Source: Humisphaera borealis (GTDB lineage Bacteria > Planctomycetota > Phycisphaerae > Tepidisphaerales > Tepidisphaeraceae). From it: DNA of 64,000 bases. The number at the start of each line of letters is the position of its first letter. The first letter of the stretch is position 1. The stretch lies in the NCBI RefSeq assembly GCF_015169395.1, contig NZ_CP063458.1, forward strand, positions 3,162,001 through 3,226,000, in the 5' to 3' direction. Below the pieces are notes generated by a model that was not told the origin of the DNA, did no database searches, and saw only the letters and a list, made by a program, of their open reading frames with translations. Below, piece by piece: positions 1-9,200 of the stretch. The position numbers were made by a program, and so were the translations under genes.

Positions 1-1971
1 CAAAGCCGTCGGGTCGACTTTAGTGAAATAGGTCAACGTCACACGAAGCCGAACCTCCGGCAGGGCGTTTACAATGTTGACGGGCAGCTTCAATGTGTAG
101 ACGTGACGTTGCCTCCGTCGCATCTCAGATGTAGCGAAGAAACATATCTCGGTCGGGAGCACTCCATCAAGAGCGGCTTGATCGGGGACGCCATGTCCAT
201 AGAGAAGATGCCGGGAATCCCTCTTGTCTTGATCAGTCCAATCAGCGGGAAATGGTCCTGCGGTCTCGGGGCACTGACAGACGTGTGTCAGATAAGCCTT
301 CGCGAGAAGCGGGGCATATCTCGTCTCAGCCGAGCTTTCGAATAGTTTCACGAGCCGGGCAAGCGCAAATGCCACTTTCGGCACAGCGAAGCTGGTCCCA
401 AAGTCCTTAGCCGTTCCAGTAGGAGCTTTAAGGCTCTTGATTGCGGCGTCATCGTCATCGTCAACATCGATCGCCACATCTGTGGGGTCGTCCGGATTAA
501 TACTAAGAACGCAGTTTCCCCCGGCTTCCGACAAATCAGGCTTTGGGAATTGCTTCGGACCTGGACCACGCCGCGAGTAAACGGTGGCATGGCCGGGATG
601 CGAGTATTCCTGCCCCACTTGGCGTTCCGCGTAACTCGAGACCGTTATAGCATTGAACGCCTCACCCGGCCGCCCCATCTGCGCATTTGGATCGGAATGC
701 CACGTTGCCGGGTCGAGAAAATTAGGCTGATCGGGCGAAAGCTGGTCACCCACGACGTTGGGAAGGTTCCCAGTAGGCAACACGAACAATACGCCGTATT
801 TGCGCGAAATCAGGTCAATGTTTAATGCTTGGGGACTGACGTTGTCACTATCGATCGGCACAGCTGTACTGACGGAAGCCGTGAAGACTTTCGTCCTTGG
901 ACGGAGAGCACTCACAGCCTCTGCGACCGCACCGTAGCTATCCAGGTTCAGTCCGCCAGGTATGCCTGCAAGTTCTACTCTCCGCGAATGCACAACGGCG
1001 CGAGCGTGAAGCCGACCGTCTGCTCGGACTTGCCTTTCCGGGTCTTCACCGTAAGCAATCACTCCGGCGACGAACGTTCCATGCCCCCCTTCCGGGTCAA
1101 AGTCGCTCAGATCGACTTGTGGGTCGCCAGTGAGGACGACTCCGGCCAAAAGCGGATGGCTGGCATGCACACCCGTATCGAAAACGGCAATCTCCGGGAC
1201 ATGCGGAGCAACAACCACTGACAGCTTGCCTCCGCTCCCGCCGGAAGCTGCTCGGTGTCTCGCAGCAGGACGTAACTCGCCAGCTTGCTCAACCAACGCG
1301 ACCGCCTCGACGCGCTTCGCGATATCTTCTGACAACGCGAGCGGTCCTTGCCATGTGCTGGTGAATCGACCGACACCGGCAACCAACTTTTGGAAGACCA
1401 AGCCTCTTGGCCCAAGCTCTTCCCTAATCGACTCGATAATGACGCTGATTTCCTTGGCGTTGTAATGAGGGTAAAAGACGAGCTCGAGGAGACCCGTGCG
1501 TGAGGTGTCTCCCCGCTCTAAGATCTCAAGGAGGCTTTTCCCGAGCTTGTCCTTGTAGTCGAGCCCTTTAATAGAATCGATGTAGTCTAAATCTGCAGTA
1601 ACCGCCTGTTTGCTACTATACTGGCCAATGTAGCGCTTCGAGTCATCGTAGTCCGCTCGTGATCCCCAGCTAGCGACGATACCACCATCCGGCAACACTC
1701 GGTGAACCTTGGCTTGGATACGGTCGAGGTTTCGGCGTAGGGACGGACGACCCTTCCAAGTACGTGCGGCGAAAAAGATGTGCTCGTCCGGTACGAGCGG
1801 ATCCTTAGGCTTAGACAACAGGGCTCGGCGTACCCCCGCAAGTAAGTTCGCGGCATGCGCGGGTCGGCTAAAGCCGTCCTCTCGCGGTTCACTGCCGCCT
1901 TGAGGTACAAACTCCTCGGTTGAGAACCACTGGCGTGGGAATCGCCGCAATGCCCGCCGTTGTTCGCTCAT
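1..1971 (-). CDS. Subtilisin-like S8 family serine peptidase (3' end beyond window)
   Basis: I translated the minus strand from an ATG at 1971 and found 657 codons with no stop up to the window edge. The catalytic set of the subtilase family is complete: Asp265 in VFDTGVHASHP, His297 in GGHGTFVAGV, the oxyanion Asn402 in VLPTGNL and Ser527 in GTSFAVPKVA. A YGHGVPD stretch follows, as is usual after the Ser. The first 260 residues form a charged domain with no signal peptide, so the enzyme should act inside the cell. Its ATG overlaps the TGA of the AAA ATPase gene (ATGA), so the two are surely cotranslated. The region is less GC-rich than the rest of the window. The likely role is ATPase-gated proteolysis, perhaps in defence or stress. 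The fold is certain, the biological role is inference. Confidence 0.9.
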   Translation of the reverse strand, partial: MSEQRRALRRFPRQWFSTEEFVPQGGSEPREDGFSRPAHAANLLAGVRRALLSKPKDPLVPDEHIFFAARTWKGRPSLRRNLDRIQAKVHRVLPDGGIVASWGSRADYDDSKRYIGQYSSKQAVTADLDYIDSIKGLDYKDKLGKSLLEILERGDTSRTGLLELVFYPHYNAKEISVIIESIREELGPRGLVFQKLVAGVGRFTSTWQGPLALSEDIAKRVEAVALVEQAGELRPAARHRAASGGSGGKLSVVVAPHVPEIAVFDTGVHASHPLLAGVVLTGDPQVDLSDFDPEGGHGTFVAGVIAYGEDPERQVRADGRLHARAVVHSRRVELAGIPGGLNLDSYGAVAEAVSALRPRTKVFTASVSTAVPIDSDNVSPQALNIDLISRKYGVLFVLPTGNLPNVVGDQLSPDQPNFLDPATWHSDPNAQMGRPGEAFNAITVSSYAERQVGQEYSHPGHATVYSRRGPGPKQFPKPDLSEAGGNCVLSINPDDPTDVAIDVDDDDDAAIKSLKAPTGTAKDFGTSFAVPKVAFALARLVKLFESSAETRYAPLLAKAYLTHVCQCPETAGPFPADWTDQDKRDSRHLLYGHGVPDQAALDGVLPTEICFFATSEMRRRQRHVYTLKLPVNIVNALPEVRLRVTLTYFTKVDPTAL

Positions 1972-2744
1972 CTTGACTTCCCAATCATCGACATGGCGTC
2001 GGCCCGTGCGCGAAGACTCCTTGCAGCCGCCGCCGTATCCGCCACCTTTAGGCCATGCTGGAGAGCGTCGACGACTTCGGCCGGAGACATCTTGCGTGCA
2101 AGCCGCACAAGTTCTGGCGACACTCGCTTCACCCCCGAAGCTTGGCGAACCAGCAACTTCGTATGGTCGACGCCTAGTGGCCGAAACGCAAGCATGTGTT
2201 GAAAGCGGCGGAGCGCAGCCGGATCCACCGACTCGGGCAGGTTTGTCGCTGCAACTACTGCAACTGAACCGGCCGTCTCGTCTAACGCACTTAGTAAGCC
2301 GACAACTGTCCTTCGGCTCTCGCCACCTTCGCGAGGATCGTCACGGCGACGCGCATACGCATCTAGATCATCGAACACCAATACTGCACCCACCTCGCGG
2401 GCAGCACGGAAAAGATGCGTTAAGTTAGATACAGTTCCCCCTAGAAAGGAGGTGATCAACCTGTCCGCACGTACCCACCAAAACGGTCGTGTCGATCCGA
2501 ATGCCCAGTTCCGCAAAGTCGCCGTCTTCCCGACTCCGGGCGGACCGAAAAGCAGAACTCGCGGGGCGGTGGGTGCCGGAAGCGAAAGCATCCTGCCTAC
2601 ATCGTCTACCGAGTCCTGCAAGGACTTGGGATAAACCAAGGCTTCACTTCGTGGTGGCCTAATCTGGTCGACCCAATCAGGAACGACCACTCCTGCCGCG
2701 CCGCGCGAGGCCTTTAGGTTTTTGATTTGAGGCCCAACCTTCAT
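1968..2744 (-). CDS. AAA family ATPase, partner of the S8 peptidase
   Basis: A 258-residue single-domain AAA ATPase. Walker A is GPPGVGKT at 67-74, Walker B is VLVFDDLD at 121-128, and the sensor-1 Asn is N168 in AATNLP, followed by DPAALRRF with candidate arginine fingers at 179-180. About 60 residues without a recognised domain precede the ATPase. A strong ribosome site (AGGAGAGG) lies just upstream of the ATG. The stop overlaps the start of the subtilase gene, which argues for a two-protein complex in which ATP hydrolysis remodels a substrate or switches the protease. The overall shape resembles small AAA proteins of the Cdc48/FtsH-like group, but without their extra domains. Its substrate and trigger cannot be read from the sequence. 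Confidence 0.9.
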   Translation of the reverse strand: MKVGPQIKNLKASRGAAGVVVPDWVDQIRPPRSEALVYPKSLQDSVDDVGRMLSLPAPTAPRVLLFGPPGVGKTATLRNWAFGSTRPFWWVRADRLITSFLGGTVSNLTHLFRAAREVGAVLVFDDLDAYARRRDDPREGGESRRTVVGLLSALDETAGSVAVVAATNLPESVDPAALRRFQHMLAFRPLGVDHTKLLVRQASGVKRVSPELVRLARKMSPAEVVDALQHGLKVADTAAAARSLRARADAMSMIGKSR

Positions 2745-3114
2745 CCGCCTCTCCTACTTACGTCCGGCGCTTGAGCAAAACCGACATCCTAACGGATTCC
2801 GAACTAAATTGCACGCCTTAAGTGCCGCGAACGCCCCATCTTTTGCGGTCTTTCGAGGAGTCGAGCCGGCGGATCCTCCGAACCGGCAGGTCAAACGACC
2901 TTTAGGGCTGAGTGTACTCGATCGGGCTCGGCCATAGGCATTCTGCGTCCAGTATCGTCCCCACAGGCAAGTCAGCGTTTGCCGGTCACGCTACAACTCG
3001 ACTTATTCCGACTGCGTCTCCCGGAGGCCCCGTATCAGGTTAGAGGCCGGGAAGGCTCCTACGGACAACGAGGTGGCGGCGGACGAAAAGGTGGACGAAA
3101 TACTTTCGGCGCAT
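2745..3114. other. Intergenic region upstream of the AAA/S8 pair
   Basis: About 370 bases between the AAA gene and the tRNA terminator. I see no convincing reading frame, RNA gene or repeat. It must hold the promoter of the leftward AAA/S8 operon, but no clear -35/-10 pair stands out. If the left side is an inserted island, the junction with the chromosome would be in or near here. Confidence 0.5.
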
Positions 3115-3144
3115 GAAAAAACCCGCGATTTTTCGCGGGTTTTA
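3115..3144 (-). terminator. Rho-independent terminator of tRNA-Glu
   Basis: Read on the minus strand, a perfect 6-bp CCCGCG/CGCGGG stem closes a six-base A-rich loop. It is flanked by AAAA before and a run of T after, starting directly after the tRNA 3' end. The A/T flanks also make it usable on the plus strand. Confidence 0.85.
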
Positions 3145-3145
3145 G

Positions 3146-3218
3146 TACCCCCAAGGGGAGTCGAACCCCTGTTCGCCGGCTGAGAACCGGCTGTCCTAGG
3201 CCACTAGACGATGGGGGC
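3146..3218 (-). tRNA. tRNA-Glu (anticodon CTC)
   Basis: The minus strand folds into a full cloverleaf: acceptor GCCCCCA pairing with TGGGGGT (first pair G-U), a D arm containing the CTAGTGG stretch, a GCCGG/CCGGC anticodon stem with loop TTCTCAG giving anticodon CTC, and a T arm AGGGG/CCCCT with loop TTCGACT. The discriminator is A, and no CCA is encoded. It decodes GAG. A terminator follows at once. The 3' half of such a tRNA is a common integration site, and here the accessory AAA/S8 genes lie on that side. Confidence 0.95.
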
Positions 3219-3462: not shown

Positions 3463-4275
3463 ATGGCGAAAGCAACGAGCGTAGGGTGGACGCGAGAGCA
3501 CTTTCTGATCGCGCTGAACGTCTACTGCAAGCTTCCCTTCGGGAAGCTCCACAAGGGCAACAAGCTCATTATCGACGTTGCCGGCAAGATGGGGCGAACG
3601 CCAAGCAGCCTCGCCATGAAGTTGTCCAACTTCGCATCACTTGATCCCGTGTTGCAGGCCCGAGGAATACGAGGCCTGTCCGGCGCGACCAAGACCGATT
3701 GTGCGATGTGGGATGAATTTCACACGGAGTTCCCCGCGCTTGCCCCGGCCAGTGAGCAGTTGTTGCATGACCTGTTCACAAAGGATGACGGCCGCGAAGT
3801 GGATTTTCTTCATCGCGATAAGGTCCGGCTGGAGCCGGCGGCGAGGTTCATCGCATGGACGGGTCCCACGGAATCGACCGCAACAGTCAAAGTTCGGCGG
3901 GGGCAGCAGTTCTTCCGACAAGCTGTCCTTAACGCGTACAACGTTCGCTGCTGTATCAGTGGAATCCATGTCCCGCGCCTACTGGTTGCAAGCCATATCA
4001 AACCATGGAGCGGTTTTCCGAATGAACGGGTCGACCCACGAAACGGGTTGTGCCTGTCCAGTCTTCATGATGCGGCGTTCGATGCCGGATTGATCACCAT
4101 CGACGAGCAACTCAGAGTTGTGCTCGGCAAACAACTGAAGTCCTATTTCCCACAAGCGGCGTTGGAACAGAACTTCACTCCATTCGAAGGCAAGCCAATC
4201 AATCTGCCAGTGAAGCTGGCCGAGCCCAGTAAGGAGTTCCTGCTGTATCACCGCGAATCGGTCTTCATGCTCTGA
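3463..4275 (+). CDS. HNH endonuclease domain protein
   Basis: A 270-residue protein. The C-terminal half carries the HNH_2-type core: SHIKPW, then NGLCLSSLHDAAFDAGLITI, where the first His, the Asn and the second His are the metal-binding and catalytic set. The N-terminal half (about 1-150) has no recognised domain and probably binds DNA or a partner; its WTREHFLIALNVYCKLPFGKLH start is typical of stand-alone HNH proteins in defence-related regions. No methyltransferase is adjacent, so it is not a simple restriction pair. It is monocistronic between tRNA-Glu and aroA, and less GC-rich than aroA. No good ribosome site precedes the ATG, so the start is only moderately sure. Confidence 0.85.
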   Translation: MAKATSVGWTREHFLIALNVYCKLPFGKLHKGNKLIIDVAGKMGRTPSSLAMKLSNFASLDPVLQARGIRGLSGATKTDCAMWDEFHTEFPALAPASEQLLHDLFTKDDGREVDFLHRDKVRLEPAARFIAWTGPTESTATVKVRRGQQFFRQAVLNAYNVRCCISGIHVPRLLVASHIKPWSGFPNERVDPRNGLCLSSLHDAAFDAGLITIDEQLRVVLGKQLKSYFPQAALEQNFTPFEGKPINLPVKLAEPSKEFLLYHRESVFML

Positions 4276-4380
4276 CTAGCAGCGTGCGATCTCCCACCTT
4301 ATGACCGCGCCAAGGGACGAAGCGCACGCCGCCCCCCAATCTTTACCTTCCCCCTCCCATCCCCTACCCTCGACCGCCCG

Positions 4381-5685
4381 ATGAGCGACATCACCCTTGA
4401 GCCTCTCTCCAAGCCCTTTTCCGTCTCGGTCACCCCGCCGGGGTCTAAGAGCCTGACCAATCGGGCATTGGTGCTGGCGGCGCTGGCGGGTGGGTCTTGC
4501 TCGGTCTCCAACATCCTCTTCGCCGACGACACGCTGGTCATGCTCGACTGCCTGCGTAAGCTGGGGTTTGACGTAGCCGTGGATGAAGCCACTCGGACTG
4601 CCACCGTCGTCGGGCGGGGCGGGGTGTTGCCGGCGTCGTCGGCCGAGTTGTTCTGCGGCAACAGCGGGACGACCATTCGCTTTGTCGCCGCGCTGTGTGC
4701 CCTGGGGCATGGGGATTTCACGCTCGACGGCGTTCCCCGCATGCGGCAGCGGCCGATCGGGGAACTGGCCAACCTGCTGCACAACCTGGGCGTGCGGATC
4801 GAATACCCCGGCGAAACCGGCTTTCCGCCGGTGCGGATCGTCGCCGACGGCCTGCCCGGCGGGTGGGTGCGGTTCGGGCGCAGCCAGTCGTCGCAGTTCC
4901 TGTCGGCGTTGTGCCAGGTCGCACCGTATGCCCGGCATGAGGTTCGGGTGAACCTCGAACCGAACCAAACGAGCTGGCCTTACGTCGCGATGACGCTGCG
5001 GCTGATGGACGAGTTCGGCGTTACGCCGCACCTGGTCCGCGATCCCGACACCGCCGAGCCCACGCAGCTCATCATCCCGCAAGGCGTTTACCATCCGACG
5101 TCGTATCAGGTGGAGCCGGATGCGTCGGGGGCGAGCTACTTCCTGGCCGCAGCGGCGATCCACCCTGGCAGCAAAATCACGATCGCCGGCCTGGGCAAGG
5201 CCAGCCTGCAGGGGGATGTGGGGTTTGCCGACCTGCTGCACCAGATGGGGGCCGACCTGGTCTTCGGCAAAGACTTCATCACAATCGGCGGGACCGACCG
5301 GTTCGAGGCGATCGATGTCGACCTTTCGAAGATGCCCGACACGGCGCAGACGCTGGCCGTCGCTTCGCTGTTTGCCGAGGGCACGACCCGCCTGCGCGGC
5401 CTGCACACGCTGCGGGTGAAAGAGACCGACCGCGTCGCCGCGACGGCGACAGAGCTTCGCAAGCTCGGGGCGGAGGTGGAGATCGACGGGGACGATCTGA
5501 TCATCACGCCGCCCGAGGACGGCCGGCTGAAACCCTCCGCGATCGACACCTACGATGACCACCGCATGGCGATGGCATTCGCGCTGGCGGGGACGAAGTC
5601 GGCGGGCGTCACAATCCGCGACGCGGGATGTGTCAGCAAGACGTATCCGACGTACTTCCAGGACTTGGAAACGCTGCGGGGGTGA
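4381..5685 (+). CDS. aroA: 3-phosphoshikimate 1-carboxyvinyltransferase (EPSP synthase)
   Basis: This is the sixth step of the shikimate pathway: it transfers the enolpyruvyl group of phosphoenolpyruvate to shikimate-3-phosphate in the cytoplasm. At 434 residues it has the normal length. Family marks are PGSKSLTNR near 20-28, GNSGTTIRF at 93-101 in the PEP-binding loop, SQSSQFLSAL, the LRVKETDR signature around 350, and YDDHRMAMA near 393. No other aromatic-pathway gene is adjacent, so it appears to be a single-gene unit. The next gene on the strand starts about 550 bases on, after a large palindromic repeat. The reverse-strand open frames across it are shadows of its GC-rich codons. Confidence 0.97.
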   Translation: MSDITLEPLSKPFSVSVTPPGSKSLTNRALVLAALAGGSCSVSNILFADDTLVMLDCLRKLGFDVAVDEATRTATVVGRGGVLPASSAELFCGNSGTTIRFVAALCALGHGDFTLDGVPRMRQRPIGELANLLHNLGVRIEYPGETGFPPVRIVADGLPGGWVRFGRSQSSQFLSALCQVAPYARHEVRVNLEPNQTSWPYVAMTLRLMDEFGVTPHLVRDPDTAEPTQLIIPQGVYHPTSYQVEPDASGASYFLAAAAIHPGSKITIAGLGKASLQGDVGFADLLHQMGADLVFGKDFITIGGTDRFEAIDVDLSKMPDTAQTLAVASLFAEGTTRLRGLHTLRVKETDRVAATATELRKLGAEVEIDGDDLIITPPEDGRLKPSAIDTYDDHRMAMAFALAGTKSAGVTIRDAGCVSKTYPTYFQDLETLRG

Positions 5686-5721
5686 GCCTTCGGCGGTGAG
5701 CTTTCGTCGGTCCGAAAGAAG

Positions 5722-6031
5722 GAGATCACCACGGAGGCACGGAGACACGGAGGGCAATGGGGCGAACGAGGCGCACTCGTCACCCTGAGAGCGTGTGACA
5801 TTTTGAGGAGCCGCGCACGAAGTGTACTCACGGAGTAAGTGGGGACGACCCCGAACCGTCACGGTTCCTGCTTACCGTCAAGATTCCCGTATACTAAGGG
5901 CTCCCGCTTACTCCGTGAGTACACTCCGTGCGCGGCTCCTCAGAACGTCGCATGCTCCCAACTCCTGATGGCACGAAAGTGACACGTCCGTCGAGTCGCC
6001 CTCCGTGTCTCCGCGTCTCCGTGGTGATCTC
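5722..6031. repeat. Nested inverted repeat filling the aroA-carB gap
   Basis: Two inverted repeats sit one inside the other. The outer arms (5722-5755 and 5998-6031, 34 bases, two mismatches) are built on the ACGGAGRCACGGAG motif. The inner arms (5805-5843 and 5903-5941, 39 bases, two mismatches) contain TGTACTCACGGAGTAAG. About 60 bases separate the inner arms, holding a further small dyad around GAACCGTCACGGTTC. A relative of the outer arms recurs at 35700-35873. It has no coding potential, and the transcript would fold into a very long hairpin. Confidence 0.9.
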
Positions 6032-6235
6032 TCTTCTTCGCCCCAGCGACGCCGCTTAGCGCTCCCCAAAACCACGTCGTTTTGCAATCGCCGCCGTCAT
6101 CTGTACAGTGCTCGGAATTTTGCAGACGTCCGGGTCATTGCCGGGGACGTGGCTTCTGCCACATCTTCAGTCTTGTCCGGCACTTAGGATTGTTCGCCGG
6201 CCGATTACGCCGCACAGCGGTTACCAACCACGCCC

Positions 6236-9200
6236 ATGCCCAAGCGCACCGACATCCACTCGATCCTCATCATCGGCTCCGGCCCCATCGTCATCGGGCA
6301 GGGGTGCGAGTTCGACTACTCCGGCGTGCAGGCCTGCCGCGCGCTGCGGGAGGAGGGGTATCGCATCGTCCTGATCAACAGCAATCCCGCGACGATCATG
6401 ACCGATCCGGAGTTCGCCGACGCCACCTATATCGAGCCCATCTCCCCCGAGACCGTCGAGAAGATCCTGGAGCGTGAGAAGGCCAACGGCACGCCCATCG
6501 ACGCCCTGCTGCCAACCCTCGGCGGGCAGACCGGCCTGAACACCGGCATGGCCTGCTTCGACAAGGGCATCCTGACCAGGTACGGCGTGAAGATGATCGG
6601 CGCCGACCGCGAGGCGATCTTCAAAGGCGAAGACCGGCAGGTGTTCAAAGACCTGATGCTGAAGATCGGCCTGAAGGTGCCGCTGTCGGGCGTCGTGCAT
6701 ACCTTGGAAGACGCGCGAAAGGTGCTCGATGAACTCGGCCTGCCGCTGATCATCCGCCCGGCTTTTACGCTCGGCGGGACCGGCGGCGGGATCGCCTACA
6801 ACGTCGAAGAGTTCGAGACGATCGTCGCCCGCGGCCTCGACGCCAGCCCGACCAACGAAGTGCTCGTCGAGCAGTCGGTCATCGGCTGGAAAGAGTTCGA
6901 GATGGAGGTCGTCCGCGACCGCAATGACAACTGCGTCATCATCTGCTCGATCGAAAACATCGACGCTATGGGCGTTCACACCGGCGACAGCATCACCGTC
7001 GCCCCGATCCAGACGCTGACCGACAAGGAATACCAGCGGATGCGCGATGCGAGCTTCGCCGTCATCCGCGCCGTCGGCGTCGAGACGGGTGGCAGCAACA
7101 TCCAGTTCGGCATCAACCCCGCCAACGGAGACATGGTCGTCATCGAGATGAACCCGCGCGTGTCGCGAAGTTCGGCGCTGGCGTCCAAGGCGACCGGTTA
7201 TCCGATCGCCAAGCTCGCCGCTAAGCTCGCGGTCGGGTACACGCTGGACGAACTGCCGAACTACATCACCTCGAAGAAGGGTGCCGACGGCAAGTGGGAG
7301 TATTACACGTCGGCCTGCTTTGAGCCGACGATCGACTACTGCGTCATCAAGATCCCGCGGTGGACGTTCGAGAAATTCCCCGACGCGGATGAGACGCTGA
7401 CGACGCAGATGAAGTCCGTCGGCGAAGCGATGGCGATCGGGCGGACGTTCAAGGAAGCCCTTCAAAAGGGCATCCGCAGCATGGAGGTCAAGCGCTTCGG
7501 TTTCGGCCTCGACAAGTACGACAAGTGGCTGAACGCGCAGAAGGCAAAGGCGAGCGGCCCCGTCAGTGACACGGGCTTCCAGCCCGTGCCTGGTGCGGTG
7601 GAGTCTGGAAAGCGCACGACTGCCGACGCACAACACACCTCGCACGGGCTGGAAGCCCGTGTCACTGATGCGCGTGGCTTGCCGCCCACCGCCCGCGCCG
7701 ATGACGACCTGAACGCCGACAAGACCACGCAAGGCGAATCCACCGACGCCGAGTGGCCGATCCCCGAAGGCAAGCTTCGGCGGAAGCTCTCCGTCCCGTC
7801 GCAGGGCCGGCTCTACTACGTCCGCTACGCGCTGAAGATGGGGTGGACGATCGACGAGGTGCATCAGCTGACGAAGATCGATCCGTGGTTCTTGGCGCAG
7901 ATGTTGGAGTTGGTGGAGTTTGAGGAGATTCTTGCGTCGTTTACAGACGCAGTTTCGATTCTGAACTCTGGAGGACACTACTTCGGCAAAGACATCGAAC
8001 CAGTAGTTCATCAGGCAAAGCAGTGGGGTTATTCCGACGTTCAGTTGGCAAGTGTTTGGCGCACCACGCCTGCTCGCGTAAGGCGGATGCTTCAAGAGAT
8101 TGGGCTAAAGCCCGTATACAAAATTGTCGACACGTGCGCCGCTGAGTTTGAAGCCTCCACGCCCTACTACTACTCGACCTACGAAACGCCATACCACAAG
8201 GTCGGCATTCCGGGTGAGGACATGCGAACCTGGTTTGATAAGACTCCTGGCGCTGTTGCGATGGGCGGCGCCGCGCTGATGGCCGAGATCACCGAAGACG
8301 AAATCCGCCTCACCCAAAAACCCAAGGTCATCATCATCGGCGGCGGGCCGAACCGGATCGGCCAGGGGATTGAGTTCGACTACTGCTGCGTCCACGCCGC
8401 GTTCGCATGCCGGGAACTCGGCCTCGAATCGGTGATGATCAACTCCAACCCGGAGACGGTCAGCACCGACTACGACACCTCCGACCTGCTCTTCTTCGAG
8501 CCGCTGACGCACGAGGACATCCTCAACATCTGCGAGAGGCTCAATGGCAAGCCGTTCACCGAAAAGGGCGGGCTCGTCAAAGGCGTGATCGTGCAGTTCG
8601 GCGGGCAGACGCCGTTGAACCTGGCGAAGGGCCTGAAGGAAGCCGGCGTGCCGATCCTGGGCACCTCCGTCGAGTCGCTCGACGCCGCTGGCGACCGGGA
8701 ACAGTTCCGCGACCTGCTGCAGAAGCTCGGCCTGAAGCAGCCGGAAAACGGCATCGCGCGGTCGGTGCAGGAAGCCCGCGACATCGCCCGGCGCATCGGC
8801 TACCCCGTGCTGGTCCGCCCAAGTTTCGTGCTCGGCGGGCGGGCGATGGAAATCGTCTACGGCGAAGACCAGCTCAACTACTACATGGCGAACGCCGTTG
8901 ATGCCTCGACGATCGCCGATGCCCCGATCCTCGTCGACAAGTTCCTGGATAACGCCACCGAATGCGACGTCGACTGCCTGGCGGACTATCCGCCGGTGCC
9001 GGTGCCGCTCGAATCGCAGATGGGCAAGGTCCCGCCGGACGAGATCGACAAGGGGCAGGCGATCGTCATCGGCGTGATGGAGCACATCGAAGAAGCCGGC
9101 ATTCACTCCGGCGATTCGGCCTGTTCGTTGCCGCCGTTCTCGCTGTCGAAGGAGATCATCGAGAAGCTCAAGGTGCAGTCGAAGGCGCTGGCCAAGGCAC

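Follow-up and report, generated by a model that had tools for sequence, protein, structure and literature searches.

The two genes at the extreme left edge of the window, which is the whole 64,000-nucleotide stretch analysed here (positions 3,162,001-3,226,000 of the single-contig 7.19-Mb genome of Humisphaera borealis), are a divergent and unusually small member of the catalogued IetAS family, and no new kind of system. They probably act as a toxin-antitoxin-like defence module, in which a cytoplasmic, zymogen-like subtilase would be restrained by an AAA+ ATPase and released on infection. Yamamoto and colleagues reportedly gave the names ietA and ietS to two genes of plasmid pTiC58 in 2009, and an anti-phage role of IetAS is said to have been described by Gao and colleagues in 2020.

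The gene pair and its family

The ietA-like gene (positions 1968-2744, minus strand) encodes a compact AAA+ ATPase of 258 aa. In a PADLOC search, four IetA models matched this protein (best 1.2e-36), and Pfam AAA was found at residues 63-187 (4.7e-23). The ietS-like gene (positions 1-1971, minus strand) encodes an S8 subtilase, of which residues 1-657 of 759 lie within the window; a further 308 bases extend beyond the left edge, and the full ORF was read from the genome (L002:11692-13971, 759 aa). Several PADLOC IetS models matched the subtilase (best 1.1e-42), and Pfam Peptidase_S8 covers residues 261-562. By inspection, an AGGAG ribosome-binding-like sequence (2751-2755, minus strand) lies 6 nt before the ietA ATG. 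A sequence-only reading of this DNA had claimed that the stop codon of the ATPase gene overlaps the start codon of the protease gene, and the ORF coordinates agree, with the four bases ATGA being shared at 1968-1971 (minus strand). The catalytic set that it named was also recovered: Pfam, together with sequence and structural alignments, places the S8 catalytic domain at 286-1191 (minus strand), with D265, H297, N402 and S527 at exactly those residue numbers, and these are conserved with few exceptions across 89 relatives. The pair thus has what identifies IetAS, namely a subtilase matching IetS models, an ATPase matching IetA models and located directly upstream on the same strand, and intact catalytic residues.

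The N-terminus of the subtilase (MSEQRRALRRFPRQWF...) has no hydrophobic signal stretch as judged by eye, in line with the earlier claim that the protease lacks a signal peptide. That reading had also assigned about 260 residues in front of the catalytic domain to an unknown domain. Such a region is indeed present (residues 1-255; 1207-1971, minus strand), but it proved to be the ordinary N-terminus common to IetS proteins. When it was compared by hhalign with 32 other IetS N-termini, similarity extended over residues 34-196 (Prob 81, E 1e-5), so the region is no private domain; the PADLOC match starts at residue 114.

The NCBIfam "anti-phage IteS/IteA" models were matched as well (IteS NF042956, 6.5e-38; IteA NF042959, 5e-33), although both proteins missed the equivalog cut-offs (130.5 vs 900 bits for IteS and 114.8 vs 510 bits for IteA). 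Because these bit scores fall so far under the cut-offs, the pair belongs to the same wider IetAS family only, as a different equivalog, and its function could have shifted. Identity to any relative found was only about 20-30%, and the search of 84,980 genome species found no close relative of the subtilase; the sole match in that search (L069) was rejected as a spurious frame within a catalase-like gene. The earlier idea, that the protease acts in the cytoplasm under control of the ATPase encoded beside it and that the two are probably a conflict or defence module, holds in outline through membership of the IetAS family. Its novelty, however, must be denied, because IetAS, SgiAT and mycoplasma AAA/subtilisin pairs have already been described.

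In the general plan of the locus, the H. borealis pair resembles IetAS/IteAS in the ATPase-then-subtilase order, the shared strand and near-overlap, the AAA and S8 domains, the IetS N-terminal region and the catalytic residues. An AAA-ATPase antitoxin gene likewise adjoins a subtilase toxin gene in pTiC58 ietA/ietS and in SGI1 sgiA/sgiT (type II-like). Those pairs stabilise a mobile element, whereas the H. borealis pair is chromosomal, with no proven element around it, and its toxin is a putative one. Mycoplasma TA132/133 (353 and 757 aa) agrees with the H. borealis pair in its two-gene design and in the size of the subtilase, but its ATPase is about 95 residues longer and its host is very distant. 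The sgiAT genes of SGI1 form a toxin-antitoxin pair in which the ATPase neutralises the toxic subtilase (PMC5006074). Moreover, in a mycoplasma AAA/subtilisin pair, deletion of the ATPase gene only was lethal, whereas the double deletion was viable (PMC8562856). The anti-phage mechanism of IetAS has been termed undescribed (PMC9958689, PMC11878078).

Partner linkage, distribution and neighbourhood

Searches of relatives, of the phylum and of the class yielded a planctomycete set of 29 loci with the best subtilase matches. In 28/28 evaluable loci (the 29th, cut by a contig end, was left out of this count) the ATPase gene immediately precedes the subtilase gene on the same strand, and the adjacency proposed as a test of the original idea was therefore observed. 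In six viral-contig scans, IetA was present at 99/99 loci with IetS; this set was partly recovered by IetA queries, and its unbiased subset consists of the loci recovered by IetS queries. One viral contig (L226) departs from the usual order: its two genes are convergent, at 3998-6388 (plus strand) and 6415-7422 (minus strand), and the ATPase gene lies downstream, on the other strand. In Planctomyces sp. SH-PL62, plasmid pPL62-2 carries a gene for an IetS-like subtilase immediately behind parA-parB (L068:3134-5689), and its catalytic residues are intact. No IetA gene was seen in the stretch of roughly 3-4 kb covered on each side, and this subtilase looks like an orphan toxin within a partition locus. 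In two related planctomycete IetS proteins (L059 and L063), Thr takes the place of the catalytic Ser (GTT for GTS); these are natural test cases for the need of catalysis.

The immediate neighbours of the H. borealis pair are those that had been reported. A tRNA-Glu (CTC) gene (3145-3218, minus strand) is the upstream neighbour, outside the system, and an HNH restriction-type endonuclease gene (3463-4275, plus strand; PADLOC HNH 3.8e-92, Pfam HNH_2) is a neighbouring defence-like gene. At the level of the family, the expected enrichment in defence islands was also found: 118 proteins encoded next to 20 planctomycete pairs gave matches to 213 PADLOC models, and 118 proteins taken from control loci within that group gave matches to 29. 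The comparison gives a direction and no exact ratio, as PADLOC models are redundant, those for methyltransferases especially. Named neighbours of the planctomycete pairs include a defence reverse transcriptase of type UG36 and a DrmD/HKD-Snf2-like helicase. On an Acidovorax plasmid, an integrase, iteA, iteS and Shedu follow each other in series (iteA-iteS as annotated by NCBI). The pairs do not occupy a constant housekeeping locus with conserved neighbours, and the N-terminal region of the subtilase corresponds to IetS and to no metabolic partner; the opposite of either had been named beforehand as a refutation of the conflict role.

The GC3 values of the local block are low (ietA 0.575, ietS 0.586, a trypsin-like protease gene 0.66 and the HNH gene 0.68, vs 0.72-0.88 for the flanking metabolic genes), which is consistent with horizontal gain. 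It could be argued from the placement of the pair between metabolic genes and a tRNA in H. borealis that the two proteins are a housekeeping or stress protease pair with no tie to conflict. We already disfavour that reading and consider it highly improbable, given the foreign-like GC3, the defence-rich neighbourhoods, the carriage of IetAS on plasmids and viral contigs, and a patchy distribution (15/101 relatives at E <= 0.001 and 17/397 class genomes at E <= 1e-8) in which related genomes hold different IetAS subtypes.

A compact ATPase, predicted folds and a proposed mechanism

Where the H. borealis pair departs from IetAS/IteAS is in its ATPase, the shortest of 85 IetA proteins compared (258 aa, with the others mostly at 320-420). 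Most of the N-terminal region is missing: only 66 residues precede Walker A, the fewest of the 85 (median 133), whereas this region usually comprises about 120-180 residues. In one relative (L065) it is also short (73 residues), so the IetA N-terminal region is common rather than defining. The C-terminal HTH carried by some IetA members is absent too. A frameshift or a wrong start was rejected as the cause, since none of the upstream frames held a remnant of an N-terminal region and the annotated ATG is preceded by a good ribosome-binding site; both points argue for the short ATPase as a real form. The AAA+ core (2184-2561, minus strand; Pfam and alignment) retains Walker A (GPPGVGKT), the aromatic residue of the pore loop SFLGG (Phe100; Tyr or Phe in 72/85 IetA proteins), the sensor Asn168 and the pair Arg179/Arg180. 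At the Walker-B catalytic position, however, this ATPase alone has Asp (codon 126, GAT; 2367-2369, minus strand), with Glu in 84/85 of the proteins compared, although the Glu is no published defining residue of IetAS. Given the lost N-terminal region and the Walker-B Asp, the ATPase may hydrolyse ATP poorly. Reduced nearly to the AAA+ core and altered at one catalytic residue, it points to what IetA might be able to do without, and as a compact, highly diverged member it could help define the working needs of IetA.

These features allow two further readings. The islet could be a decaying remnant of a once active IetAS, whose ATPase is degenerating and whose protease has become weak enough for the cell to tolerate it. 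Such decay would account for the shortest IetA of the set, for its being the sole one without the Walker-B Glu, and for the length of its branch, the longest in the ATPase tree (2.83); foreign composition with no integrase nearby would fit as well. Both frames nevertheless remain open over 3 kb, the overlap and the ribosome-binding site are intact, neither the other AAA motifs nor any of the four catalytic residues of the protease has been lost, and both parts are predicted to fold, and we regard decay as rather improbable. A speculative reading, to which we give little weight, is that this stripped-down IetA with its Asp in Walker B would be a slow or non-hydrolysing, nucleotide-bound clamp and no unfoldase. 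Sitting on the zymogen-like subtilase, it would make a minimal brake-and-toxin IetAS, with the protease freed by the nucleotide level or by a phage factor.

AlphaFold models were built for the two proteins separately, with IetS covering residues 1-657. The IetA model (pLDDT 87) shows a full AAA+ module, and its best fold matches were proteasome Rpt subunits, Msp1, Vps4, p97 and bacterial TRIP13 (Z 20.6-21.9). The IetS model (mean pLDDT 75) has a subtilisin fold (1wmd, Z 27.5, 309 residues aligned, 3.1 A). When the IetS model was aligned with the proenzymes pro-Tk-subtilisin, pro-subtilisin E and EpiP, the alignments began at residues 156-160 and spanned about 65-80 residues beyond those with mature subtilisins (3whi_A 318 and 2e1p 324, vs 243 for mature BPN'). 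From these longer alignments, residues about 156-240 (1252-1506, minus strand) would be propeptide-like; the model suggests that they occupy the place of a propeptide, which is a lead at the pLDDT of 33-78 in this region. Like the H. borealis IetS, these subtilisin proenzymes have the S8 fold with a pre-catalytic region at that place, but they are secreted, whereas IetS lacks a signal peptide and has a further N-terminal alpha/beta segment.

Under the reading that we prefer, that of a toxin-antitoxin-like defence module, IetS would be a cytoplasmic subtilase whose N-terminal region probably folds as a propeptide-like brake. By analogy with its relatives, IetA, an AAA+ ring of the p97/Vps4/Rpt type, would serve as the antitoxin and hold the protease harmless in the uninfected cell. 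A phage or another element could disturb IetA or engage the complex, by which IetS would be released or activated, and the freed protease would then cut cellular or phage proteins and bring growth or infection to a halt. We infer in this way that the H. borealis copy is active, together with its likely trigger, its likely substrates and the role of its propeptide-like part, which gives a specific model, open to test, of how the protease may be restrained.

Alternatively, the two proteins could work as a proteasome-like machine, in which IetA unfolds selected phage or damaged proteins and feeds them to IetS, so that defence would come from degradation of the target and involve no suicide. The ATPase belongs to the unfoldase clade, its top folds including proteasome Rpt, p97, Msp1 and Vps4, and the retained aromatic Phe100 of the pore loop would suit threading of this kind. 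Classical subtilisins, on the other hand, are monomeric, and IetS has no compartment-forming protease domain. The subtilase of relatives is toxic without its ATPase, which means that the ATPase is not needed for its action, and the H. borealis ATPase has Asp in place of the Walker-B Glu. A proteasome-like role consequently appears unlikely to us, and restraint of a toxic protease by IetA is the reading that we retain.

The trypsin-like gene and the tRNA-Glu repeat

A trypsin-like protease gene (L002:10430-11422, plus strand; GGDSG motif, Pfam Nal1_C 2.6e-8) lies 0.6 kb to the left of the window and is convergent with the subtilase gene. It was rejected as a third component of the system, as it had no match in the 40 related genomes searched and was unmatched at the other IetAS loci examined. 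Its distant plasmid relatives include proteins annotated as DNA/RNA non-specific endonucleases.

Insertion of the islet at the 3' end of the tRNA-Glu gene was also considered. A 13-bp copy of this 3' end, together with a similar terminator hairpin, occurs at L002:10104-10129 and at L002:15131-15156 (window 3131-3156), 5,027 bp apart and in the same orientation, and the two repeats enclose the trypsin-like gene, ietS and ietA. Genome sites within one mismatch of the 14-mer number two, exactly this repeat pair, and chance alone would give about two. The 68 nt that follow the tRNA-Glu gene are conserved in the congener and in family members, which argues that the flank is native, and no integrase gene was found near the pair. 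With a repeat count at chance level, a conserved tRNA flank and no integrase nearby, insertion at this site is unsupported. Relatives were also compared for an empty site near the enolase, tRNA and aroA genes, but synteny within the family was too poor to decide the matter. In the congener (G001, locus L096) and in other relatives, about 65 nt past the tRNA-Glu gene, beyond the terminator, are conserved, and homology then ends abruptly at nearly the same point, which marks a possible recombination hot spot.
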